A stretch of DNA of 23,836 nt. Source: a virus. The stretch covers positions 1-23,836 of the IMG/VR virus record IMGVR_UViG_3300025645_000447; one strand, written 5' to 3'. A model generated the notes under the pieces. That model was not told the DNA's origin, ran no database searches, and saw nothing but the letters and a program-made list of their open reading frames with translations. This document shows, one piece after another, positions 2,738 to 18,676 of this stretch; position 1 is the first letter of the stretch, and each line of letters begins with the position of its first letter. A program made the position numbers and the translations under genes.

Positions 2738-2962
2738 ATGGCTCAGACATTGGCCGGAATTCAGGCGAAGATTGCGGAAGTTGAAACCGCAATATCTAAA
2801 ACCGTCACAGCGCAAAGCTACGGCAAGGGCGACAAGTCAGTACAGCGCGCCCAGCTTGCCGAGCTTCAAACGATGTTATCGAGCCTAAGACGCGACGAAG
2901 CGATATTCGAGGCAAGGGCCAACGGCAGCAAGACGGGCCTATTGACGGCGGCTTTTCATTGA
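2738..2962 (+). CDS. Head-tail joining protein, gpW-like
   Basis: This 74-residue mostly helical protein lies between terL and portal, the exact position of lambda gpW (68 residues), which closes the portal after packaging so the tail can attach. The pattern is LAGIQAKIAEVETAI...SYGKGDKSVQRAQLAELQTMLSSLRRDE, as in gpW-like joining proteins. The ATG at 2738 follows AGAGGT with 7-base spacing, so I prefer it to the in-frame GTG at 2729. Its TGA (2960-2962) overlaps the portal ATG by one base (TGATG). Assignment rests on size, helical pattern and order. Confidence 0.75.
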   Translation: MAQTLAGIQAKIAEVETAISKTVTAQSYGKGDKSVQRAQLAELQTMLSSLRRDEAIFEARANGSKTGLLTAAFH

Positions 2963-4494
2963 TGAAGGGTTTGGACTTTGTCGCCAAGATTGCGCCAGGC
3001 TACGCAGCCAAGCGCGCAAAAAGCCACCGCGAGTACCAGCTACAGAGCGCAATGAATGAGGCCGCCAGGCTTTACGACGCAGCAACCAACACGCAATATC
3101 GCAAGCCAGTTGTCGGCGCAGGAATGTCGCCCAATGCGATCGTTGATAATGCAGGCACTAGGCTGCGCGATTTAGCGCGCTATCTTGAAGAAAATCACGA
3201 TCTAACCAACGCCATATTCGATGACTTATTAAACAATATCATCGGCGCAGGCGCATCTAAAGTTCCACAAATTAAACTAGCCAACGGCGAACTAGCCACA
3301 GATGTTAATAACCGGGCGCTGGAGTTGTACGACGAGTGGGCGCAGTGCCCGGACACAACAGGCGAGTTTGGTTTCGAGCAGATGGAGCGCATGGTTGCGC
3401 GTCACGTATTCCGCGACGGTGAGATATTCTTGCGACCGATTATCAATAACGCGGGCTTTGCATATAAGACGCAAGTGCCCTATGCCGTTGATATGCTTGA
3501 TGCTGATTATTGCCCGCTCGATTTATTAGTGACTGGCAATAACGTCATTCAGGGCATCGAGTGCAACGAGTGGGGCGCACCGACAGCGTACTATTTTTAC
3601 AGATCGCATCCTGGCGAAGTTATTAGCACGACAGTAACGATGTTGAGCGAAACCCAGCGCATTGAGGCGGCAGGCGTTTACCATCTTAAATACGTCAAGC
3701 GACTACGCCAGCGCCGAGGCGTGCCATTGATTCACAGCGTCATCGACCGAATGCGCGACATTAAAGACTACGAAGAAAGCGAGCGCATAGCGGCTAAGGT
3801 TGCAGCGAGCATGACGTTTGCAATCACCAAAAGCGGTGAGGCGTCAGCACCAACCGCAGTGAATACAGACGGCAATCGCGAGTTTGGAATGGCACCGGGC
3901 ATGGGCTTTGAACTAATGCCAGGCGAAGGCGTGACGACTATCGACAGCAACAGGCCAAACACTGGCTTAAACGAGTTCAGAAACGCAATGCTACGCGCAG
4001 TAGCAGGCGGCACCGGCACGCGATTTAGCTCAATCAGCAAAGACTATAACGGCACATATTCTGCACAAAGACAAGAATTGGTTGAAGGGTCAATAGCTTA
4101 CAGAGCACACTTCAATTATTTCGTGCGCAAATTCTATAAACCAATTTGGTCGGACTTTATAACGGCGGCGGCGTTGTCCGGGGCATTAGGGAGCTTACGC
4201 GGCGTAGATCAATCAACGCTAACGCGTTGCGAGTTCCGGCCGCCGTCGTTGCCTTGGATTGATCCAGCGAAAGAGGCGAAAGCCTGGCGCGAATTGGTCG
4301 ATGCCAAACTGGAATCACGCAAAGAGGTAATGCGACAGCGGGGCCGCGATCCGGCAAAGGTTATGGAAGAAATGACCGAAGAAAGCGAGAACGAGCTATT
4401 CGCGTCAACGATTAATCTTGCCGAGCCCGAAACACTAATCGAAGACATCAACGAAGACATCAACGAAGACGAAAACGAGGCAGGGGCAGCATGA
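2962..4494 (+). CDS. Portal protein, lambda gpB family
   Basis: This 510-residue protein forms the dodecameric ring at one capsid vertex through which DNA passes, and it nucleates prohead assembly. Family features include the early R-DLARYLEENHDLTNAIFDDLLNNIIGAG block, FGFEQMERMVARHVFRDGEIFLRPI, the central YHLKYVKRLRQRRGVPLIHSVIDRM, and FSSISKDYNGTYSAQRQELVEG, all close to lambda-type portals. Size matches lambda gpB (533). The C-terminal tail is acidic and low in complexity, encoded by a 12-base unit (GAAGACATCAAC at 4441-4452 and 4453-4464, then a variant). Its stop overlaps the next ATG by four bases (ATGA). Confidence 0.92.
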   Translation: MKGLDFVAKIAPGYAAKRAKSHREYQLQSAMNEAARLYDAATNTQYRKPVVGAGMSPNAIVDNAGTRLRDLARYLEENHDLTNAIFDDLLNNIIGAGASKVPQIKLANGELATDVNNRALELYDEWAQCPDTTGEFGFEQMERMVARHVFRDGEIFLRPIINNAGFAYKTQVPYAVDMLDADYCPLDLLVTGNNVIQGIECNEWGAPTAYYFYRSHPGEVISTTVTMLSETQRIEAAGVYHLKYVKRLRQRRGVPLIHSVIDRMRDIKDYEESERIAAKVAASMTFAITKSGEASAPTAVNTDGNREFGMAPGMGFELMPGEGVTTIDSNRPNTGLNEFRNAMLRAVAGGTGTRFSSISKDYNGTYSAQRQELVEGSIAYRAHFNYFVRKFYKPIWSDFITAAALSGALGSLRGVDQSTLTRCEFRPPSLPWIDPAKEAKAWRELVDAKLESRKEVMRQRGRDPAKVMEEMTEESENELFASTINLAEPETLIEDINEDINEDENEAGAA

Positions 4495-4742
4495 AGGTAT
4501 TTTTGATTTTGACGGCATCATTATTATCAGCGTCGGCATTAGGCCAAAGCCTAGAGCAGACCGGCACACTTCACCGATGGGATTACGTCGATTTATTTAT
4601 GGGCATCCTATCGACAATGGGCGGCGGCGCAGCACTAGCGGCGTGGGTTCCGATGAAGATACAGAAAGCCATACCAGGTGTGCGCATGTTGATAAATTTA
4701 GTTGCCCAGAACTTCCGCAACGCATCGAACAAAGATGATTAA
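4491..4742 (+). CDS. Small membrane protein with N-terminal hydrophobic segment; holin candidate
   Basis: This 83-residue protein has an N-terminal hydrophobic stretch (KVFLILTASLLSASALGQ, about residues 2-19) that looks like a signal peptide or signal-anchor. A second hydrophobic segment (FMGILSTMGGGAALAAWVP, about 37-55) and a basic, polar tail follow. Two membrane passes and small size fit a holin-type protein, but I recognise no family. It starts by ATGA overlap with the portal stop, and its 3' end overlaps the next gene by eight bases. It therefore forms a coupled trio with the two genes after it, an odd insertion between portal and capsid genes. Confidence 0.6.
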   Translation: MKVFLILTASLLSASALGQSLEQTGTLHRWDYVDLFMGILSTMGGGAALAAWVPMKIQKAIPGVRMLINLVAQNFRNASNKDD

Positions 4743-4983
4743 AGCGATGGAAGACAATTTGCTAGAAGTAGCCAGCGCAATTGTGATGGCATTAGCGGCA
4801 GGCATGGTTGCTTTGTGGAAAACTAACCAGATGACCATGAGCCAAAGAATAGAACACGCCGAGCAAAAGCTAGACGAATGCGAGGCCAACCACAAAGAGG
4901 CCAACGCGACTTTGATTAAATTGTCAGAGCGCGTTGGCAATTTAGAAGGCGCAGCGAATAGATTGCGGTCGGTAGATGATTGA
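4735..4983 (+). CDS. Small protein with one membrane segment and a coiled coil
   Basis: This 82-residue protein begins with a hydrophobic helix (LLEVASAIVMALAAGMVALW, about residues 8-27). The rest is a charged coiled-coil-like region (MSQRIEHAEQKLDECEANHKEANATLIKLSERVGNLEGAANRL). The topology resembles inner-membrane spanins or XhlA-like lysis accessory proteins, but no family motif is decisive. An alternative in-frame ATG is at 4747. It overlaps the previous gene by eight bases, and its TGA overlaps the next ATG (TGATG). A lysis role is inferred from the pairing of two small membrane proteins. Confidence 0.6.
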   Translation: MIKAMEDNLLEVASAIVMALAAGMVALWKTNQMTMSQRIEHAEQKLDECEANHKEANATLIKLSERVGNLEGAANRLRSVDD

Positions 4984-5366
4984 TGCGAAAGAATTTGCAA
5001 AACAGGTGGACCAGATACGCGACGACCGCGAGTTGGCTATGCGTCGCAGTTATCACAGCATCGCCGTTGCAGGCATCAAACGCGGCGAGCTTGATATTTA
5101 CCTATACAGCGCCGACAACGCGAACAGACGGCACGACACTAGCAGCAAGCGAGATATCAGGCTACCAGCTAACCGGCAGCGGGCTAACGATTGATGTTAG
5201 CGCAAATGTCAGCGAATACATTGCAGAAGGTTACGAGATAGCACCGGGCGCAAATTGTTTTGATCTTGTAACCATAGACACAAACGGCAGGCGAAGCGAG
5301 CCAGCGCAAACATGTTTGCCAGCAGCACCGAATGCGCCTAGCAGTTTTACAGTTATTTTTAAGTAG
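4983..5366 (+). CDS. Exported protein with a fibronectin type III-like domain
   Basis: This 127-residue protein has a basic start (MRKNLQNRWTRY), a hydrophobic stretch (TASWLCVAVITASPLQA, about 15-31) and a likely signal cleavage near ASNA-AS. A single beta-sandwich domain follows with the FN3-like pattern LIFTYTAPTTRTDGTTL...ISGYQL...CFDLVTIDTNGRRSEPAQTC. Two Cys in the domain could form a disulphide. Such domains bind surfaces or carbohydrate, or are carried as virion decorations. The ATG at 4983 overlaps the upstream TGA. An alternative frame from 4976 (ending 5194) also looks gene-like for its first 25 codons, so the N-terminus is the least certain part. Confidence 0.6.
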   Translation: MRKNLQNRWTRYATTASWLCVAVITASPLQASNAASLIFTYTAPTTRTDGTTLAASEISGYQLTGSGLTIDVSANVSEYIAEGYEIAPGANCFDLVTIDTNGRRSEPAQTCLPAAPNAPSSFTVIFK

Positions 5367-5375: not shown

Positions 5376-7454
5376 ATGGCAAATTATTATGTAGACGGCT
5401 CTTTAGTAGGGGCAGGTACAGGAACAGAGACAGACCCTTGGAACACGCTTGCCCTTGCAGAAGCTACAGCAACTATTGGCGACGTAGTTTATGTAGCTGG
5501 CGGAGAGTACAACGAGACTATTGCATCAGGCGGGGCGCGTGATGTCACTTGGCATGCAAGAAGTGGGGACGTTGTACTTGATGGTTCAGGTTTAGGAAAT
5601 GTAGACGGTATCATACACTCGTCTGGACAAGATACAGTATTAGATGCAGACGCTGGCTCTCGTTGGATCATACGGAACTTTGGAACCACATCATCGGACT
5701 ACGGTATATTAGTAGGCGGGACTGCTGGATTAACAATCAACTGTGATGTACTTATCTATAAATGCGGTTCTGGTTTGTTACTTTCAGGTAGTGGTTCAGT
5801 AAGCGGGACAGGTAGGTTGGTCATTGCTTCCACTATTAACGCTCACGGTATAGTGACTTCAGGCGGTGCCTTATTAAATGTAACGCTAGCTGAAGTAGTG
5901 ATCGTAGGTGCTAAAAGGAGGGGTATAGATTCAAATAACTCAAACGCTTCCTCTGTATTTAATATAACTACTCTAAGGGTTGTAGGCTGCGGTGAAGAAG
6001 GTGTTAAGTTTAGCTCGGCTTGGGCGGGATCAGCTATTTTTACAACCGCATATGTTGGCGGGAATGTAAACCCTAACCAAGCTAGTAAGCAAGTATTAAC
6101 AACAGGTATTGCAGGTACGGTAGAGATAACAAATTTCTATGTTACAGGTAAGAATATTAACTCTGATGAACTAGTTGGCGGTACAGTAACCTCCACAGTT
6201 CTTGTTGAGAATGAACCTATCTTTGCTGAATCCGTAGGTAGGGGTAGTGTCTCGTTGATGGTAGATGACACTGCCAACACAAACTCCGCAGATATAATGA
6301 TTGCTAAAGGAAACCAGTACGGTTTCCCTGTTTGTCATTGCCTTGATTTTACAGAGCCAAATAACGGTCTGCCTATCAATATTACAGATTGGACACGTTT
6401 CAGTAATATGGTTTCTCAAGGTCACGAGGTATCGCTACACACTCGCCAAGAAGCCAACCTTAGCGACATCACCGCTATGCGTCTTAAACATGACGGTGCG
6501 GGCAGCACAGTAACAATAGCTCTTAACAAATTAAACACCACTATATCTGGTGGAACTGGTGCTAACATTGTTGATCTTGATTTAACAGCTTACGACACTG
6601 TAGCTGACTTGGTTACATACTTAGACGGCCTTACAGGGTATAGCGCAGAGACTTATGACAACCTTATTGCAAGGGTTGGCACTAACTTAGGTATGACTGC
6701 CTTACAGTTTGCTGGTAGACCTAAAGCTAAACTCCTTGAGGCCACTATTGCTCAGGATATAACAGGAGCCAATGGATTAGAAATCAGCTATAACCAAGAG
6801 CAATACTTTGATGAAAACATTGGTAATAACATATTAGACATATCTAATAACATAAGCTATGTACCGACTACAGCAGTCTATCCGGGCGGTTGGTTTGCAG
6901 ATGCTTTTGCCATCGAACTAGAAGATCGGGGTGTCGCAGGAGCTAGGGGTGCGCCTAACAGTACAAAGGTGAGTTGGTATCTTTCTAGTTGCTACCCCTA
7001 TGCTTCAGAGGCTTGGCATATGGTGGATATATGGCCGCCAGAACTTACCGATCCAGCGTACACTGAAGCAAGGCGCAGAGAAGCTGTTATAGCTTTTTGC
7101 GAGTGGGTAAAGACTAGCGGTGCTTGTGTTCAGTTGTATATACATGGAGTAAATGGCGTTAATTACACAACTAGAGAGATTGAGGTGACGCTAGATGCTG
7201 TTGCAGAAAGCGGTGTGCGGGTTAAGAAATACAAAGAACAGATAGCCGATATGAAAAGCGGAACATCTGATGCAGGAACCAGCCCTAATTACACTCAAGA
7301 TTTATGGCCTGAGCAGATAAGCTGGCAAGGTGCGTTACTAAGTGACAACAATGGCTCTGCTATAGTACCTAACAGCATAGGCACAACAGGCAGCACTTTT
7401 AAAATTATCGACTCACTCAGCGACGATGCAGCATTCGCCGCTATTTTTGATTAG
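5376..7454 (+). CDS. Tail spike-like protein: beta-helix plus NodB-like polysaccharide deacetylase domain
   Basis: This 692-residue protein probably binds and modifies host surface polysaccharide. Residues 1-280 are a Gly/Val/Ile-rich right-handed beta-helix type region, opening with YYVDGSLVGAGTGTETDPWNTLA as in phage pectate-lyase-like spikes. Residues 290-625 follow the NodB/CE4 deacetylase plan: SLMVDDT (291-299, metal-binding Asp pair), GHEVSLHTRQEANL (349-362), VYPGG (501-505) and QLYIHG (586-591) before a helix and the GVRV strand. A separate insert with the SGGTG...TVADLVTYLDGLTGYS pattern lies at about 380-425. The usual H-x3-H reads H355-T-R-Q-E359, so the second His is Glu. It is visibly richer in A+T, with different codon choice from its neighbours. 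Function is inferred; the fold assignment is fairly good. Confidence 0.72.
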   Translation: MANYYVDGSLVGAGTGTETDPWNTLALAEATATIGDVVYVAGGEYNETIASGGARDVTWHARSGDVVLDGSGLGNVDGIIHSSGQDTVLDADAGSRWIIRNFGTTSSDYGILVGGTAGLTINCDVLIYKCGSGLLLSGSGSVSGTGRLVIASTINAHGIVTSGGALLNVTLAEVVIVGAKRRGIDSNNSNASSVFNITTLRVVGCGEEGVKFSSAWAGSAIFTTAYVGGNVNPNQASKQVLTTGIAGTVEITNFYVTGKNINSDELVGGTVTSTVLVENEPIFAESVGRGSVSLMVDDTANTNSADIMIAKGNQYGFPVCHCLDFTEPNNGLPINITDWTRFSNMVSQGHEVSLHTRQEANLSDITAMRLKHDGAGSTVTIALNKLNTTISGGTGANIVDLDLTAYDTVADLVTYLDGLTGYSAETYDNLIARVGTNLGMTALQFAGRPKAKLLEATIAQDITGANGLEISYNQEQYFDENIGNNILDISNNISYVPTTAVYPGGWFADAFAIELEDRGVAGARGAPNSTKVSWYLSSCYPYASEAWHMVDIWPPELTDPAYTEARRREAVIAFCEWVKTSGACVQLYIHGVNGVNYTTREIEVTLDAVAESGVRVKKYKEQIADMKSGTSDAGTSPNYTQDLWPEQISWQGALLSDNNGSAIVPNSIGTTGSTFKIIDSLSDDAAFAAIFD

Positions 7455-7462: not shown

Positions 7463-9478
7463 ATGACAATCAAAACACAAAACAGAACAGCGCGCATTGA
7501 ATCGCGCAAGCAAGACGGGCGAACAGTTTACAGCGCATCGTTAAGCAGTGAGCTACCAGTGCGCCGACAGGGCTATACCGAGATACTCAGGCACGATGCC
7601 GACTCGATCAATATGGAGCGCGCCGACAATGGGCTAGTGCTTTTATTTAATCACGATACCGACCAACCAATCGGCAGGGTTAATGGCATACGACTACGCG
7701 AGGATGGCAAGCTAGTTGGTGATCTAACGTTTAGCAATAGTGCAGCGGGCAAAGAGCGCCAGGGCCAAGTAGACGACGGCACACTAACCGACATTAGCAT
7801 ACGCTACAGCATCGACGACGAAGAACGAAGTCAAGGCGAAGATGGCGAAACAGTTTATACAGTGACAAGATTCACACCGATGGAAGCGTCGGTAGTTGCG
7901 GTCCCGGCCGATAGTTCGGTCGGCATAGGGCGCAATCAAGAATTACCAACCGGCGAGCGCGAGCACGCCACAACAACAGCAAACCAAGAGGCTACACCAA
8001 TGAGCAAAGACACAACGCCAAAAGGCGATAACGCTAACGATGGCGTTGTTGCAAATTTTGAATCGGCACGCAAGGCCGGTGCAAGCGAAGGCATCAAGCG
8101 AGAGCGCGAGCGCCAAGCAGACATCAACGCATTATTTGCCGAGCCTAAGTTCGACCAAGAAGTTTATCAGGCTTTACGCAATGCGTGCCTAGACGATGGC
8201 AGCACTATCGAGCAGGCGCAGCGCAAGTTGTTAGGCTTGATCGGAAACGAATCAGACAGCGATTATATTGCACCACAACCAAAAACCGAAGCGGGCGCGC
8301 AGCGTTCACAGGTTCGGATTAAGGAAGCAGCCGAGGACAAACAAGCAGACGGTATGCGCAGCGCATTAGAGGCGCGCTTGCAGATCGTTACAGGCGACGA
8401 GGCCCGATCAGTATTAGCGGGTAACGAATTTGCCGGTATGACTATGGCAGAAATGGCGCGGCACTCGCTAACGCTTATGGGCGTTGAGAACGTCAACAAG
8501 TTCGACTTGCGCAGTGCAGTTGGTTACGCATTAAACCCGGCAGCATTGCCTCACAGCGCAGTGCGTTCGTTTGTCGGCAACGGCAGCAGCGTTTTTACCG
8601 CGTTGGTTGAGAACATCGCCAACAAGCAAATGCAAAAAGGTTTTATGGAAGCAGCCGAAACCTGGCGCGGCTTTTGTAACGTTGGCAGTGTATCGAGTTT
8701 TCGCCAAGAATCACGCGTAGACCTTTCAACGTTTAGCGACCTGGCCGAAGTACCTGAGAATGGCGAGTACGAGCATGGTCAAATGAGCGACTCGAAAGAA
8801 TATATTCAGGCCCAGAAATACGGCCGTTTATTCTCGATCACGCGTGAGGTCATTATCAACGAAGACTTAAACGCATTGGCGCGCATCCCGGCAGAAATGG
8901 GCCGAGCAGCAGAGCGCAAGACGGGCGACTTAGTCTACGCAATTTTAACCGGAAACCCAGCAATGCAAGATGGCAACAACCTATTCTCGGCGGCACACGC
9001 CAACCAAGCAGCGGTTGCGGGCACGCCTAGCGTATCAACGTTAGATGAGTTGAAGGTGTTGATGGCCAAGCAGAAAGGTTTGGGGTCAAACGCACACGGC
9101 CAGAACATTCGCATAGCGCGAGTGATTGTGCCGGTTGCACTTGAAACTCAGGCGATGATTTTGCAATCAGCGACAGCCGATCCAGACCAGCAGTCAACAG
9201 GCAAGGCCGGTGGCGGTACTAGACCGAATCCATTTAACGGTACTTTCGAGACTATCAGCGACGCACGACTTGATGCAGCCAGCGCAACTAAGTGGTACGC
9301 GGCAGGCGATCCAACGTTGCACGATACGATTGAAGTGGCGTATCTCAATGGCCAGCAAGCACCAACGCTGGAAAGCGAGAACGGCTTTACCACCGACGGC
9401 ATCACCTACAAGGTGCGCTTGGAAGTTGGTGTTAAGGCTATCAGCCATCGCGCACTAGCGGAAAACGCTGGAGCATAA
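7463..9478 (+). CDS. Prohead protease fused to major capsid protein
   Basis: This 671-residue fusion combines capsid maturation and shell. Residues 1-155 are an S78/U35-type prohead protease: likely catalytic His in LFNHD (H64), Ser in DISIRYS (S112), and the closing EASVVAVPAD block. Residues 180-350 are charged and helical, as expected for a scaffold or delta domain (GIKRERERQADINALF). Residues from about 365 match the Mu gpT-like major head family (SSVFTALVENIANKQMQKG, YIQAQKYGRLFSITREVIINEDL, LFSAAHAN). Such fusions are known in phages. An internal in-frame ATG at 8000 (residue 180) has AGAGG 8 bases upstream and looks like a retained gene start. The main ATG follows TAGGTGA. Confidence 0.9.
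   Translation: MTIKTQNRTARIESRKQDGRTVYSASLSSELPVRRQGYTEILRHDADSINMERADNGLVLLFNHDTDQPIGRVNGIRLREDGKLVGDLTFSNSAAGKERQGQVDDGTLTDISIRYSIDDEERSQGEDGETVYTVTRFTPMEASVVAVPADSSVGIGRNQELPTGEREHATTTANQEATPMSKDTTPKGDNANDGVVANFESARKAGASEGIKRERERQADINALFAEPKFDQEVYQALRNACLDDGSTIEQAQRKLLGLIGNESDSDYIAPQPKTEAGAQRSQVRIKEAAEDKQADGMRSALEARLQIVTGDEARSVLAGNEFAGMTMAEMARHSLTLMGVENVNKFDLRSAVGYALNPAALPHSAVRSFVGNGSSVFTALVENIANKQMQKGFMEAAETWRGFCNVGSVSSFRQESRVDLSTFSDLAEVPENGEYEHGQMSDSKEYIQAQKYGRLFSITREVIINEDLNALARIPAEMGRAAERKTGDLVYAILTGNPAMQDGNNLFSAAHANQAAVAGTPSVSTLDELKVLMAKQKGLGSNAHGQNIRIARVIVPVALETQAMILQSATADPDQQSTGKAGGGTRPNPFNGTFETISDARLDAASATKWYAAGDPTLHDTIEVAYLNGQQAPTLESENGFTTDGITYKVRLEVGVKAISHRALAENAGA
7987..8002 (+). 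promoter_or_regulatory. Internal ribosome site and start in the protease-capsid gene
   Basis: AGAGG (7987-7991) lies 8 bases before an in-frame ATG (8000-8002), at the join between the protease and the scaffold-capsid part. Translation here would give a 492-residue protease-free capsid precursor in addition to the full fusion, similar in logic to nested protease/scaffold starts in lambda. The site is seen in sequence; its use is inferred. Confidence 0.5.
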
Positions 9479-9535: not shown

Positions 9536-9868
9536 ATGACAAACAAATACGTTTCAAGCGGCGACAAGCAAAGCATCGTCGTCACAGGTGGCCCAGTAAC
9601 ACAAGGCACAGTTTATATCGGCACAAGCAGAGCTGGTGTTTATTTAGAAAGCGGAGCGGTTGGCGATTTAGTTGCAGTGGCTTTTCGCGGCGTTTTTACA
9701 TTGACCAAAACAGCATCGCAAGCATGGACTAACGGCCAAGCCATTTATGCGACATCGGCAGGCGTTGCCACAGTTACAGTCGGCAGCAATACGTTTTTAG
9801 GTTATGCCTGGGGCGCAGTTGATAACGCAGCGTCGTCAGTGACTGGCGCAGTTGACGTGCGCAGCTAA
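9536..9868 (+). CDS. Capsid cement/decoration protein, DUF2190-like
   Basis: This 110-residue beta-rich protein follows the capsid gene, the usual place for cement proteins that stabilise the expanded shell. The pattern GDLVAVAFRGVFTLTKTASQAWTNGQAIYAT...NTFLGYAWGAV matches DUF2190-type decoration proteins in layout and length. The ATG follows a TTGAGG ribosome site at 9521-9527. Its TAA overlaps the next ATG (TAATG). The last bases, TGCGCAGCTAATG, are repeated exactly at the end of the next gene. Confidence 0.75.
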   Translation: MTNKYVSSGDKQSIVVTGGPVTQGTVYIGTSRAGVYLESGAVGDLVAVAFRGVFTLTKTASQAWTNGQAIYATSAGVATVTVGSNTFLGYAWGAVDNAASSVTGAVDVRS

Positions 9869-9870
9869 TG
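9858..9870 (+). repeat. 13-base junction repeat, first copy
   Basis: TGCGCAGCTAATG covers the stop of the cement gene and the start of the joiner gene. An identical copy is at 10586-10598, again at a stop-start junction. The pair brackets the whole head-tail joiner gene including its extra C-terminal domain. Confidence 0.6.
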
Positions 9871-10596
9871 TCGCTACGCGATGACATGGCTACCGACATC
9901 GGTGGCGATTCCGTTTTTTATGACATACAAAGCGGGTGGGCAGAATCAGCGACGGTTTATTCAACGTCGTTGGTTGTGCCTATTTTATTTGATTTAGAGT
10001 ATTACGATTCAGAAACTGGCGATCTTGTAATGGGCACGCGTGCGCCGCGTTGTTGGATTAGATCAAGCGATGCGCCGGTGGTTGGTGATTCGCTAACTAT
10101 CCGCAGCGTGCAGTACCAGGTAACGCACACAGAGCCAAACGGCGACGGCGAAAGCTATTTGTATTTGCAAAAAGTAACTAATCCATTGCCGCCGATTGTT
10201 GGCGTTATTGATTCGTTTGTTGTGACGGTTGGAGATTTTTTCAGCACTACATATGGATTTAGCAGTATCAATTTTTTTATTGGGTCAATCAATCCGGCAA
10301 CGGTGAATATGTCAAATAACACAATTTGCATACCAGTATATGCGGCATGGGGTTTTGATACTGTATTTTTTTCGGTAGATGACCAAAGTGGGCCGCTAGA
10401 AAATAGTGATGAGAGCGCATTTAAGCAGCTTGCTATTGTTGAAAATGACGTTGATATTATAGTTTTAGAAAGAAGCGCAGCGAGTAGTTACAACGAGAAC
10501 GGTTCAGGCGTTCACGCCTGGCAGTGGTCAGGCCAAACGTTAAACCCATACGGCACAGTTGTAGGCGCAACACGAATAGTAGAGTTGCGCAGCTAA
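9868..10596 (+). CDS. Head-tail joining protein (FII-like) with an extra C-terminal beta domain
   Basis: This 242-residue protein has two parts. The first 105 residues resemble the lambda gpFII-type head-tail joiner, about 115 residues in lambda (SLRDDMATDIGG... then VPILFDLEY, APRCWIRSSDAPVVGDSLTIRSVQYQVTHTEPNGDGESYLYLQK). The remaining 135 residues form a separate Phe/Ser/Asn-rich beta domain (TTYGFSSINFFIGSINPATV...VHAWQWSGQTL), like surface domains attached to phage structural proteins. The DNA of this extension is richer in T runs than the first part. The joiner role is supported by its place between cement and tail terminator. The function of the extension is unknown; host-surface or environmental binding is a guess. 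Confidence 0.68.
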   Translation: MSLRDDMATDIGGDSVFYDIQSGWAESATVYSTSLVVPILFDLEYYDSETGDLVMGTRAPRCWIRSSDAPVVGDSLTIRSVQYQVTHTEPNGDGESYLYLQKVTNPLPPIVGVIDSFVVTVGDFFSTTYGFSSINFFIGSINPATVNMSNNTICIPVYAAWGFDTVFFSVDDQSGPLENSDESAFKQLAIVENDVDIIVLERSAASSYNENGSGVHAWQWSGQTLNPYGTVVGATRIVELRS

Positions 10597-10598
10597 TG
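10586..10598 (+). repeat. 13-base junction repeat, second copy
   Basis: TGCGCAGCTAATG, identical to 9858-9870, at the joiner stop and tail terminator start. Identical junctions could be left by recombination that brought in the C-terminal extension, or could simply be a reused coupling sequence. Confidence 0.6.
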
Positions 10599-11045
10599 GC
10601 AAGTTTAAGATTGCAAATTGTAAACGAGGCGATCACAAGGTTTTCGGCTATTTTGCCGGGCCGCGTTTTTGTTAATCGACGGTTGCCCATAGCATCAAGC
10701 GAGGGCTTTAGTATCAGCGTCGATTGGTCCGAAGATACGGCAGATTACAGCGCGGGAATGTTGTCATCAATACCGCAGCGCAATTTGACATTGGCGGTCA
10801 ATATTATTTCAAGAGCCGAGGGGATAGCCAATCCACCACAAGCCAAGTTAGACGAGTTTGCAGTAGCCGTTGAGGAGAAGATTTACAGCGACCAGACATT
10901 TACAGGCAAAGCGCTGGGCGTGGAAATATCAAGCTACACACAAGAGATCGACAACGACGGCGAAAATACCGTTGGTTCGATCAAGATGGAATTTAATATT
11001 TTTTACTACGCGGCAGAGGGTGCGCCCGAAACCGCAATAACATAG
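10596..11045 (+). CDS. Tail terminator protein, gpU-like
   Basis: This 149-residue protein fits the lambda gpU class (131 residues), a hexameric cap that stops tail tube growth and makes the head-binding face. The layout is ASLRLQIVNEAITRFSAILPGRVFVNRRLP...SISVDWSEDTADYSAG...NLTLAVNIISRAE...LDEFAVAVEEKIYSD...VGSIKMEFNIFYY. The alternating strands and closing beta strand are typical of tail terminators. The ATG overlaps the previous TAA (TAATG). Position between joiner and tail tube supports the call, which rests on pattern rather than a signature residue. Confidence 0.68.
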   Translation: MASLRLQIVNEAITRFSAILPGRVFVNRRLPIASSEGFSISVDWSEDTADYSAGMLSSIPQRNLTLAVNIISRAEGIANPPQAKLDEFAVAVEEKIYSDQTFTGKALGVEISSYTQEIDNDGENTVGSIKMEFNIFYYAAEGAPETAIT

Positions 11046-11985: not shown

Positions 11986-13790
11986 TGGCAAGAGCAAATA
12001 TAGTATACGAAATACTAGCCAACGATAAAACAAAAGCGGCGCTCGGCAAGGTCGAAAAGAATTTTAAAAGAGCTGGCGCAGTTGGCGTTACGGCATTTGC
12101 AGGCTCAACCGCAGCATTAACAGCACTAACGGCAGCGGGCTTGAAGTCAGCCGATGCGCTGGGCAAGACGGCCGACAAGCTGGGCGTTATGCCACAGGCT
12201 TTGCAGGGCGTGCAACGCGCAGCAGCGTTGACAGGCGTCAAGCTAGAAACCGCTAACATGGCTTTACAGCGCATGGTACGGCGCACAGCCGAGGCCGCGC
12301 AGGGCACAGGCGAAGCACGCAACGCTCTAAAAGAATTAAACCTAGACGCAACAGTGCTGGCTCAGCTATCAGCAGATGAGCAGTTTGCCAAGATAGCGGG
12401 CGCAATGGAAAACGTCGCAAGCCAGGGCGACAAGGTCCGGTTGTCGATGAAGCTATTCGACAGCGAAGGCGTTGCTTTAGTTAATACGCTTGCGCTGGGC
12501 GAGGAAGGTTTAAAAGCAATATCGAAAGAAATCGACGACTACGGTATAGCACTAACGCGGGTCGATATAGCCAAGATCGAAGCAGCTAACGATTCATTAT
12601 TTAAAGCAAAAGAGGTTGTTGCAGGTTTTGGACAGCAATTAGCGGTACAGTTTTCGCCATTGTTGGAAGCCGCGTCCAATCAGTTTTTGGAAATGGCAAA
12701 GCAGGCAGGCGGCGCGGGCACAGTAGCAACGCAAGTATTTAATAGCATGATAACCGGCGCGGGTTTTGTTGCGGATGCTATCAACGGGATAAGCCTAGTA
12801 TTCCAGGCGATAAAGGTCATTGCGTTTAATGCGGTGGCGGGCGTTGTTGCGGTACTGGCAGAGCTTGAAAGCGGCGTTGTGGGCTTTGTAAATCTTATAA
12901 CAGGCTCAGAGTTCAAGGGCGCAATCACAGGTATCAGCGAGCAGTTAGTCAGCGCAGCGGTCAACGCTACCGAAGAATTCCAAGCGGCACTACTTGCGCC
13001 GCCGCCGTCAGAAAAAATACAAGCGTTTGTTGCGCCTATCATTGCAGCGGCTAACGAAGCAGCAGCGGCAGTGGCAACAGGCCAGCCAGCGGAATTTGAT
13101 CCAACGCAAACTCCGGAAATAACACAAGCGCAGTTGGTAAAAGACGAGCTTTTGCGTATTAAAAACAGCCAGAATAAAGAGCTTTTAAACATTGAGAAAA
13201 AGGCAGATGGCGCATTATTTAATTTGAAGCGTGCGGGGTTTTCGGCGTTGTCAGGTCTCGCTAAAAAGGCGCTTGGCGATAGCAAGGCCGCAGCAATAGC
13301 AGGCATCGCAATAGATGCGGCATTTGCAGGCAGTGAAATACTCGCGCAAGGTTCACGCGAAGCGGCAGCAATTAAAGCAGGACATGCCCTACAAGCGTCG
13401 TTGATTCCTGATCCAACAGGCGCAACACAGGCGGCTATACTTGCAAAGGGCACAGCACTAGCAGGCGCAGCAATAGCGACGAGTAAAACACTAGCAGCCA
13501 AAGCATTTGCAATAAAATTGGGCACCGGCTCAATAGGCGCATTGAGTGGCGGCGGTGGTGGCGGGGGTGGTGCAACAGGCAGCGGCAGTGGTTTTGGCGG
13601 GCTTGATCCAATCAGCAGCGCCGATGATGACTTTATAACCGACCGCACAACGCAGCCGACCAACGTTATTAGCATTGATTTTAGCGGTGGTATCACAGAC
13701 ACTAACGCGGTGCGCGAGTTTATCGAGAATGATTTTGCCGAAGCGTTGCGCGACGGCAGTGGCTTAGATGTTCAAGTGGTGGCGGTATGA
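11985..13790 (+). CDS. Tape measure protein
   Basis: This 601-residue protein sets tail length and enters the host envelope at infection. It is Ala/Gly-rich and mainly helical. The N-terminal part (RANIVYEILANDKTKAALGKV...LKSADALGKTADKLGVMPQALQGVQRA) is typical of tape measures. Hydrophobic segments at about 250-310 (GFVADAINGISLVFQAIKVIAFNAVAGVVAVLA) could cross the inner membrane, and a poly-Gly linker lies near 523-530. By the usual relation of about 0.15 nm per residue, the tail would be roughly 90 nm, shorter than lambda's. The ATG overlaps the end of the chaperone extension; its stop overlaps the next gene by four bases. Confidence 0.9.
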   Translation: MARANIVYEILANDKTKAALGKVEKNFKRAGAVGVTAFAGSTAALTALTAAGLKSADALGKTADKLGVMPQALQGVQRAAALTGVKLETANMALQRMVRRTAEAAQGTGEARNALKELNLDATVLAQLSADEQFAKIAGAMENVASQGDKVRLSMKLFDSEGVALVNTLALGEEGLKAISKEIDDYGIALTRVDIAKIEAANDSLFKAKEVVAGFGQQLAVQFSPLLEAASNQFLEMAKQAGGAGTVATQVFNSMITGAGFVADAINGISLVFQAIKVIAFNAVAGVVAVLAELESGVVGFVNLITGSEFKGAITGISEQLVSAAVNATEEFQAALLAPPPSEKIQAFVAPIIAAANEAAAAVATGQPAEFDPTQTPEITQAQLVKDELLRIKNSQNKELLNIEKKADGALFNLKRAGFSALSGLAKKALGDSKAAAIAGIAIDAAFAGSEILAQGSREAAAIKAGHALQASLIPDPTGATQAAILAKGTALAGAAIATSKTLAAKAFAIKLGTGSIGALSGGGGGGGGATGSGSGFGGLDPISSADDDFITDRTTQPTNVISIDFSGGITDTNAVREFIENDFAEALRDGSGLDVQVVAV

Positions 13791-14554
13791 CAGCGTATAT
13801 TAGTTATCACACATGCTTGGAAACAGCTAACGCGGGCGGCTATTTAACCAGCAGCCCACTAGCAACAGGCTACAATATCTCAAATATATTAGACTGGAAG
13901 ACGCACACTGGCATAAAGTTTGCGTCAACAGGTGGCCATTTTATTCAGGCTGGTCCTTATCCTGGCTCTGGGCCTAAGTTCCAATCGTTAGGCATGATTG
14001 GTAACATCGGCGGAATCAGTAGCGTTGAAGTATCGTACAGGGATGATCCAGCCGATGCGTGGCAACAAGCTATTTTTTACACTATACCAGCCAATCAAAA
14101 CGTTGTTTTTTTACGCTGGGATGATCCCGGCAGATTTAACTATTGGAGAATAACTTTTCAAGGTGTTGACGCGGACACGTTTATTGGCGTTTGTATTTTA
14201 GGCATTGCGCCGCTAGAGCTAAGGCCAATCGGCACAGGATTTAGACCGCCAGTTTATGAGCATTACGATTCGATAAATGCGCAAGGCAACGCGGCCAACT
14301 ATTTAGGGCGCAGCATCAAGCGCAAACCGATGGATTTAACCATCAAGCAGCAAGGCATAACGCAAGCAGACTTGCATGGCAAGTGGATCAATTTTTTAGA
14401 ACACGCAGCGCGCAAGCCGTTCTTTTTTAGTTGGGACAATGAAAACTATCCCGACGAGGCGGTTTATTGTTGGACAGAAAAACCGCAGCAGCCGGTTTAT
14501 AGTTCGCTTTGTTCAGCGTCGATAAATTTAAAAGTTAAAGCAATCAAATCGTGA
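13787..14554 (+). CDS. Minor tail protein, probable distal tail or tail-tip component
   Basis: This 255-residue protein is coupled to the tape measure by an ATGA overlap. The N-terminal half (LATGYNISNILDWKTHTGIKFASTGGHFIQ...WRITFQGVD) has the pattern of a carbohydrate-binding or discoidin-like beta-sandwich seen in tail-tip proteins. The C-terminal part (GRSIKRKPMDLTIKQQGI...WINFLEHAARKPFFFSWDNENYPDEAVYCWTE) resembles distal tail proteins. It occupies the place of lambda gpM. The role is inferred from position; I recognise no decisive signature. Confidence 0.6.
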   Translation: MTAYISYHTCLETANAGGYLTSSPLATGYNISNILDWKTHTGIKFASTGGHFIQAGPYPGSGPKFQSLGMIGNIGGISSVEVSYRDDPADAWQQAIFYTIPANQNVVFLRWDDPGRFNYWRITFQGVDADTFIGVCILGIAPLELRPIGTGFRPPVYEHYDSINAQGNAANYLGRSIKRKPMDLTIKQQGITQADLHGKWINFLEHAARKPFFFSWDNENYPDEAVYCWTEKPQQPVYSSLCSASINLKVKAIKS

Positions 14555-17265: not shown

Positions 17266-17288
17266 GGCCCGCGTCGCGGGTCTTTTTT
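17266..17288 (+). terminator. Intrinsic terminator of the virion/lysis operon
   Basis: GGCCCGC (17266-17272) pairs with GCGGGTC (17276-17282; one G-U) around GTC, followed by six T (17283-17288). It lies just after the M15 gene. The T-tract also contains part of the stop codon of the convergent minus-strand exonuclease gene, so the two converging operons are packed end to end. Confidence 0.88.
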
Positions 17289-17967
17289 ACACGAACAGAT
17301 TGATGCGTTTGAATATATCGCGCACTAGCGCAACATCCTGGGCGCAGTAGGCTTTGATTGCATCGTGCGCGTCGAGTTTGTAATTATCCCAAACCTCAGC
17401 ACCAGACATCCCGCCTTTTTCACCGCAGCGCAAAACAGCGCTTAGATTATCCAGGCTTATGCGTTCGCGGAATCCGGCCCAAGCAGTCATCGTGCAAAAG
17501 AAATCGCTACCGTGGCGACCATTCGCAGGAATGCGGAAGGGCGGCGGCTTGATCCCGGCGTTGATGATTGAGCGTTGCACAATGAATCGCAGATCAAATA
17601 CAACGTTGTGCCCGATGAAGTACGGTATTTGCCCATTGGCAAGCGCATCATTTAGCAGCGCGTAAAATTCCAAGAGCATCTCAAATTCGCTACGTTCAGG
17701 CTTGCGGTATACGCTGTATTCCTTGTGATCAGTGGCAAAACAGATGCAAATTATTTCGCCGCGAGTGCCGTCGAGGGCGGTTTTCCGATACGCTTCGTCA
17801 ATCTTGCGATCTTTTACACCAGTGTACTTGCCACTACCAGCGTGCCAATCAGCTATCGTTTCGGCCTTTGTCATTGACGCAGGCGGCTTGATAGTTTCGG
17901 CGATCTCAAGTTTAGCGTCGTTTTCCGGTTGCGTTGGTATTGTTTCAATGTCGATATAGATATTCAT
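17287..17967 (-). CDS. DEDDy 3'-5' exonuclease, PolB-exonuclease-like
   Basis: This 226-residue free-standing exonuclease has the full DEDDy set: YIDIET (D6, E8), GHNVVFDLRF (D125) and YCAQD (Y207, D211), in a layout like the predicted PolB-related 3'-5' exonucleases of phages. It would act in proofreading, recombination or degradation of DNA ends. No phage DNA polymerase is visible in the window, so it may serve host polymerase or recombination. The ATG overlaps the TGA of the 29-residue upstream frame by four bases (ATGA). It is the last gene of the minus-strand operon with the SSB-like gene. Confidence 0.85.
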   Translation of the reverse strand: MNIYIDIETIPTQPENDAKLEIAETIKPPASMTKAETIADWHAGSGKYTGVKDRKIDEAYRKTALDGTRGEIICICFATDHKEYSVYRKPERSEFEMLLEFYALLNDALANGQIPYFIGHNVVFDLRFIVQRSIINAGIKPPPFRIPANGRHGSDFFCTMTAWAGFRERISLDNLSAVLRCGEKGGMSGAEVWDNYKLDAHDAIKAYCAQDVALVRDIFKRINLFV

Positions 17968-18053
17968 ATGTCACCCATTAGCGAGAAAAAATAACCGCCA
18001 TACGCAAAGCACATAGCGGCCCAAGTCAAATAAAATTGGAGTTCGCTAACCAC
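17964..18053 (-). CDS. 29-residue membrane peptide between SSB-like and exonuclease genes
   Basis: On the minus strand, GTG at 18053-18051 begins in the last base of the SSB-like stop (TAGTG). The frame runs 29 codons to a TGA that overlaps the exonuclease ATG by four bases. The product starts VSELQFYLTWAAMCFAYGG and continues with YFFSLMGDI, giving one hydrophobic, aromatic-rich segment. Junction overlaps of 1 and 4 bases fit a genuine coupled gene better than a chance gap. It has no recognised family. It could be a small membrane regulator or lysis factor, or the frame may exist only to carry ribosomes between genes. Confidence 0.5.
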   Translation of the reverse strand: MVSELQFYLTWAAMCFAYGGYFFSLMGDI

Positions 18054-18676
18054 TAAAACGGGATGTCATCATCGACTAATTCGCCGGTTTTTATTTCGCC
18101 GTAAGATAAGACCGGCACTCTTTCAATAATGTTAATTTTGCCCTGGAGCCATTCAGGAAAGTCATCGTATTGAATTTGCCAATCTTTACGGTCGCCGTCC
18201 ATGTTGAACAGTTCAAGCGGTGCGGTCGGTTTTTCGACTTCCGTAAAGCCTTTAGGCAGCGAGCTAACGCTACTTATAGCGGCATAGGTGTTACCGCTCA
18301 GGCTTTGTTTGTGCGTGATAGAAAGCATTGCAGCGCGTCCCAGATAGCTACCCAGGTCGATGCCATCTTTTGCCTCGGCGTCGGTCATCGCCTTACCATT
18401 CCAACCGTCAACGATAGCACGCAGCGCAGCCTTTTCGTTGAGGCTCAACGTCACTTCACGAGAAGCATAGAAGGGCGTTCCGTCGGTTTTTTGTTCGTCG
18501 CAGAGTTCAAAAGAGAGGCGCAGCTTGCGAACGTCGCGGGCCTTTTCGCCTTGCCAATTTTGTTCGTGAAAACCAAGGTCGGTAATTGAAGTGCAAATTG
18601 CACGATACGATCCAGCAGGGCACAACTCGAAGTTACCACCGCCGCCGGTTGATTTATCTTTGATAATAAAAGTCAT
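18053..18676 (-). CDS. Phage ssDNA-binding-like protein with SSB C-terminal tip
   Basis: This 207-residue protein ends in VDDDIPF; DDDIPF is the tip by which proteobacterial SSB recruits replication and repair enzymes. The body (GGNFELCPAGSYRAICTSITDLGFHEQNW...RKLRLSFELCDEQKTDGTPFYASREVTLSLNEKAALRAIVDGW...LPKGFTEVE) follows a phage protein group often annotated as ssDNA-binding, probably OB-fold-like. It would coat ssDNA in replication while competing for host SSB partners. It is first in the minus-strand operon with the exonuclease. The ATG has AAAAAGG 8-9 bases upstream. The family call is from memory; the tip is seen directly. Confidence 0.72.
   Translation of the reverse strand: MTFIIKDKSTGGGGNFELCPAGSYRAICTSITDLGFHEQNWQGEKARDVRKLRLSFELCDEQKTDGTPFYASREVTLSLNEKAALRAIVDGWNGKAMTDAEAKDGIDLGSYLGRAAMLSITHKQSLSGNTYAAISSVSSLPKGFTEVEKPTAPLELFNMDGDRKDWQIQYDDFPEWLQGKINIIERVPVLSYGEIKTGELVDDDIPF

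Follow-up and report, generated by a model that had tools for sequence, protein, structure and literature searches.

A putative exchangeable host-recognition spike with a NodB-like domain, encoded at a swap site between the portal and capsid genes of a probably marine phage

A gene located between the portal and capsid genes of a phage genome probably encodes an exchangeable host-recognition spike, in which a beta-helix is joined to a NodB-like deacetylase domain, at the swap site of a lysis-plus-adhesin island. The gene (5376–7454, +) lies in an IMG/VR virus record analysed as a single stretch of 23,836 nucleotides (the window) and is an intact open reading frame of 692 amino acids with an ATG start, in exact agreement with the coordinates given in a preliminary description of this DNA. 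In the proposed explanation, a beta-helix stalk would carry a NodB/CE4-like polysaccharide deacetylase domain, probably metal dependent and holding a small inserted domain; the spike would be made late, together with the head proteins, then join the virion and, at adsorption, bind and probably deacetylate a surface polysaccharide of the host. The swap site would close the island between portal and capsid, and near-identical phages would exchange whole protein bodies there but keep the start region along with the last 21 residues, the latter perhaps acting in docking or assembly.

The window represents a nearly complete genome of ~24 kb that is circularly permuted, because its two ends adjoin each other in a sister contig (IMGVR_UViG_3300021373_002869, read as L004/L007), which spans the junction from the window's end to the window's start. 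A tRNA search of the window found none, no integrase was noticed among its ORFs, and bacterial genomes searched with the capsid yielded no prophage. Relatives of the tail hub in Marinomonas, Oceanospirillum, Idiomarinaceae, and Pseudoalteromonas phages indicate that the phage is probably marine. The first part of the gene order is TerS, TerL (GpA type), gpW-like, portal, holin-like, Rz-like, secreted FN3-like, and the spike-like gene, and the second part is a protease-capsid fusion, cement, Hc1, tail genes, hub, fibre, a small peptidase-like gene, and replication genes. The hub, distal, fibre, and peptidase-like genes were considered, and no other large spike candidate is present among the window's genes.

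The spike-like gene sits inside the head module, as had been described earlier, with the lambda-type portal gene (2959–4494, +; PF05136, 6.5e-79) as the left border of the island and the protease-major capsid fusion (7463–9478, +; PF04586, 1e-12; PF25209, 2.6e-51; phrog_4523, 7.7e-145) as the right border; three small genes separate it from the portal, and it ends 8 bases before the fusion. The first of the three encodes a holin-like membrane protein of 83 aa (4491–4742, +) with an N-terminal hydrophobic, signal-like stretch and one hydrophobic segment, for which a family search gave no match, and the next encodes a candidate Rz-like spanin of 93 aa (4702–4983, +; phrog_89, Rz-like spanin, E = 3.8e-4). 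The third encodes a secreted FN3-like protein of 128 aa (4980–5366, +), with an N-terminus that resembles a signal peptide by eye and no match in family or phage searches; it is the final conserved gene ahead of the exchange boundary, with 119 of 128 residues identical in the sister contig. Together with the spike, these genes form an island of ~3 kb that is present in the sister phage too, and the island is therefore older than the present spike. From this comparison, the spike-like gene is not a lone intruder and is better described as the variable last gene of the island. The tail genes lie at about 9.9–16.9 kb, so the earlier statement that the gene is far from them is true of the map, and that distance is uninformative on the place of the protein in the virion.

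The composition of the spike-like gene differs from that of its neighbors, with a GC content of 0.443 and a GC3 of 0.348 compared with 0.520 and 0.566 in the portal gene and 0.529 and 0.545 in the protease-capsid gene. Codon usage, expressed as the log-likelihood of codon choice given the amino acids in standard deviations from the remaining genome, gives z = −10.6, which is the extreme of 24 genes (next −6.8), and none of 352 sampled genome segments of 2,079 bases (mean GC 0.497, minimum 0.449) has a GC content as low as the gene. The per-gene statistics thus bear out the preliminary description, which had judged codon choice and base composition to be unlike both sides by eye. GC3 is likewise low in its two replacements in the sister contig (0.396 and 0.430), and low GC therefore tracks whatever occupies the site. 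A moron with its own promoter and terminator is unsupported, as promoter-like sites occur at shuffle frequency (5 vs 5.3 expected from shuffles) and no pair flanks the gene.

The exchange itself is visible from the sister contig, in which the flanks are ~94–95% identical to the window; this identity extends as far as base 5381, which is five bases inside the gene, and resumes at base 7472. At exactly the same site, the sister contig has two other ORFs, one of 259 aa and one encoding a beta-helix protein of 595 aa (PF13229, 3.3e-12; weak phage tail-spike PHROG match, 1e-4); their bodies are unrelated to the spike-like protein, and the common part is confined to the last 21 residues. The version found in the window is also carried by another contig (L002), where the DNA is 99.9% identical until that contig ends at base 5724. 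Because two different ORFs lie at the exact site in one sister contig, the site looks like a slot for exchangeable adhesins that follows a holin/spanin-like cassette. The recent gain proposed earlier fits this pattern of similar flanks around an unrelated body, and the relatives do not all carry the same gene at this place.

The conserved C-terminal peptide, GSTFKIIDSLSDDAAFAAIFD (7389–7454 including the stop, +), is identical at 20 of 21 residues to the end of the 259-aa protein of the sister contig, and the underlying DNA differs by six synonymous bases and one non-synonymous base. So few amino acid changes appear unlikely without selection (about 5e-4 in a binomial estimate that takes ~14 of the 66 sites as synonymous and ignores substitution bias). 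The conservation could also partly reflect a conserved flank, since a synonymous divergence of this size (pS 0.44) is not unusual for the flanking genes and is reached by 11–15% of 66-base windows in the portal, TerL, and capsid genes. The peptide is most simply read as a docking or assembly tag. Neither the peptide nor the sharp exchange boundary is visible to a reader of the single sequence, as the earlier reader was. Searches with the C-terminal 50 residues, a degenerate DNA pattern, and the NodB core returned nothing, the sister contig only, or a spurious match of 20 residues to a virus that is not related (L013).

The N-terminal region of the protein (residues 1–285; 5376–6230, +) has similarity to parallel beta-helix proteins (NCBIfam PelN; LIC10774, 2.8e-4), with residues 2–49 matching the start of the pectate lyase PelN beta-helix family of NCBIfam (E = 2.4e-5), which is consistent with the beta-helix noted earlier. 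The beta-helix profiles PF13229 and PF07602 gave no match to the protein. The region is strand rich in a structure model of low confidence; two single-sequence models (mean pLDDT 39.9 and 32.3) were too poor for use, and no significant hit came from a PDB fold search with the first of them (probability at most 0.13). Searches with the whole 692-aa protein retrieved no homologue from Pfam, PHROGs, PDB sequences, a set of 50,697 phages, or a set of 72,556 plasmids, and an SGNH hydrolase domain has no match in Pfam, NCBIfam, and PHROGs scans.

The NodB-like domain, which had been read by eye in the preliminary description, is now supported by a PF01522 match and by two segments of a custom profile. 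The PF01522 match at 6243–6494 is the sole one in a six-frame search of the whole window (E = 5e-4; 14.4 bits, below the curated cut-off of 23.1). The standard whole-protein Pfam scan misses the domain, and the claim therefore rests on fragment-level and custom-profile evidence. A custom HMM, which was built from eight NodB domains of unrelated phages collected with a self-written generic consensus, scores 17.3 bits at residues 285–375 and 10.6 bits at residues 485–645, where 200 shuffles of each segment peak at 3.2 and 2.4 bits, respectively. The two halves are collinear, with an insert of ~120 residues between them. The first half (residues 285–366; 6228–6473, +) contains motif 1, where D297-D298 align to the DD of the profile (base and metal ligand), and H355-T356 of motif 2, H-(S/T)-x-x-(H/D), whose fifth position is E359, so that a glutamate stands at the usual second metal-binding His/Asp. 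The inserted domain (about residues 370–484; 6483–6827, +) has weak similarity to Flagellin_IN (PF07196, E = 0.0018 on a fragment, below cut-off). The second half (residues 485–645; 6828–7310, +) has the later motifs in collinear order, including motif 3 (YPGG 502–505, the P-x-G loop) and motif 5 (H590), and lacks the arginine that motif 3 usually has. It is plausible that the protein modifies polysaccharide, with the glutamate at position 359 as a reservation.

Among known phage proteins, a NodB domain is likewise found in the "minor tail protein" gp35 of Gordonia phage Orchid, gp36 of Arthrobacter phage Gorpy, the tail fibre of Staphylococcus phage Madawaska, and CQ476_49 of a TM7 phage, all of them annotated as tail proteins or deacetylases; in the TM7 phage, the NodB gene adjoins a gene of pectate lyase type. 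The known proteins exceed the PF01522 cut-off, whereas the spike-like protein falls below it, and those of the known proteins that were scanned gave no family match pointing to a beta-helix in the same chain. The spike-like gene further differs in its domain split by an insert and its place in the head module. G7C gp63.1, Aristophanes gp41, and Possum gp66 are virion proteins that use O-deacetylation of host surface polysaccharide to adsorb; the spike-like protein would work in a similar manner, but their fold is another one (SGNH, not NodB), and it is not a member of that group.

The position between portal and capsid is rare among relatives. Among the 60 best named phages, the distance covered by portal and capsid measures 3.4–3.7 kb, i.e., the two genes are adjacent, compared with 6.5 kb in the window, and the gap is <300 bases in 68 of the 72 related viral contigs that have both genes, many of which are near-duplicates, so that these counts are not independent. 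This census rules out an island universal in relatives. Among the other four contigs, L043 encodes LtfC-like, CHB_HEX, and Big_2 proteins in the gap, L052 encodes an HNH endonuclease, and nothing convincing was seen among the domain matches of the L064 and L103 gaps. The L043 island resembles that of the window in having surface-type domains between portal and capsid but is 1.3 kb long, with lysis genes and a spike not found. The HNH endonuclease gene of L052 is located at 8046–9056, and mobile endonucleases therefore use the same portal-capsid junction. A weak match to gene 10 of Arthrobacter phages, which also lies between portal and capsid, was judged to be due to chance (E about 1), and gene 10 has a PHROG of its own.

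A partial precedent for an island of lysis and surface genes may be seen in Pseudoalteromonas phage B8b, where spanin genes and two virion proteins detected by MS are encoded between the portal and the protease-capsid fusion (ORF7–ORF13). This interval of 2.7 kb contains an Rz-like spanin overlapped by an ORF whose N-terminus is of the lipoprotein type, together with a holin-like gene and three genes on the minus strand, and virion proteomics detected the products of the minus-strand ORF12 and ORF13 and not those of ORF7–ORF11 (PMC4294664, Table 1). The portal-capsid interval can therefore encode virion proteins, and by analogy with ORF12 and ORF13, the spike may be located in the virion. The two phages differ in that their interval genes are unrelated, the B8b virion proteins are encoded on the minus strand, and the capsids are only 25.6% identical. 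Idiomarinaceae phage 1N2-2, which has a tail hub homologous to that of the window, encodes a tail spike (N22_026) beside amidase, holin, and spanin genes, but its spike-lysis block comes after the tail genes and that of the window after the portal.

Several other explanations can be weighed against a deacetylating spike. As Glu359 stands at the position of the second metal ligand and motif 3 lacks its arginine, the protein may bind without catalysis; the NodB fold would then be a catalytically dead carbohydrate-binding scaffold by which the polysaccharide is recognized and not modified, an explanation that is less likely than a deacetylating spike but far from negligible. The second-ligand position is variable in several other phage NodB domains as well, but such variation in annotated proteins does not prove those proteins dead, and the retention of D297-D298, H355, and H590 speaks against a purely binding role here. 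An extended form of the swap-site reading is somewhat more doubtful, namely that the portal-capsid interval of this phage type is a dedicated adhesin-exchange slot in which unrelated bodies, enzymatic or binding, would be attached to the virion by one short conserved C-terminal docking peptide. Such attachment would perhaps be to the head or neck, not the tail tip, and would reverse the usual layout of a fixed N-terminus and a variable C-terminus.

Two further explanations place the protein outside the virion surface. Cellular NodB enzymes frequently act on cell-wall polymers, and the spike-like gene is directly 3′ of the holin-like and Rz-like genes, which would suit a soluble, lysis-stage deacetylase of peptidoglycan or polysaccharide that partners them and stays outside the virion. 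This is improbable given that no signal peptide was seen by eye, that the protein has an apparent beta-helix architecture, that one of the sister replacements is a beta-helix protein resembling a tail spike, and that proteomics of the B8b virion detected two island proteins and no protein of the spanin region. It is more improbable still that the peptide sends unrelated cargo into the prohead for later ejection into the host, a proposal consistent with the gene lying immediately 5′ of the protease-capsid fusion and with unrelated bodies having the peptide alone in common; a beta-helix with a surface-polysaccharide enzyme fits the virion exterior, and a 692-aa spike is a large cargo for a genome of ~24 kb.

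Since NodB domains in phage tail proteins and deacetylation for adsorption by SGNH spikes are already known, the kind of system proposed here is known; the novelty lies in how these elements are combined, in where the gene sits, and in an exchanged body that ends in a short conserved C-terminus. If the exchangeable deacetylating spike is correct, some marine phages would swap host-recognition modules at a site within the head genes, and surveys of receptor-binding proteins limited to the neighborhood of the tail genes would miss such modules. The C-terminal peptide would then represent a small, testable docking tag, and a NodB-type enzyme would join the deacetylating spikes, among which the cases with activity demonstrated in the publications considered (G7C, Aristophanes, and Possum) are of the SGNH type.

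Differences between the window and the sister contig also occur elsewhere in the genome. On the adsorption side, the identities are 60% for the distal tail protein, 76% for the fibre, and 46% for the tail terminator, and the hub, portal, and capsid are 98–99% identical. The divergence of the distal protein (13787–14554) is in its N-terminal part (13930–14224), and the tail terminator (window 10596–11045, sister 12717–13259) stands among neighbors that are mostly about 85% identical or more. The Hc1 head-closure protein (9868–10596) has a low-GC C-terminal extension of ~136 residues from about 10186, which is absent from the 105-aa protein of the sister and may be a second surface module that was acquired, in this case at the neck. 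An extra ORF at 613–1359 of the sister contig, DNA methyltransferase-like by eye and located before a gpZ/Neck1-like gene, is absent from the window. In the homologous tail block of phage GJ44, a gene annotated as discoidin domain-containing adjoins the hub. Deviant codons are also seen in two minus-strand genes at 17287–18676 of the window, one exonuclease-like by eye and one ssb-like, with z values of −4.6 and −6.8.
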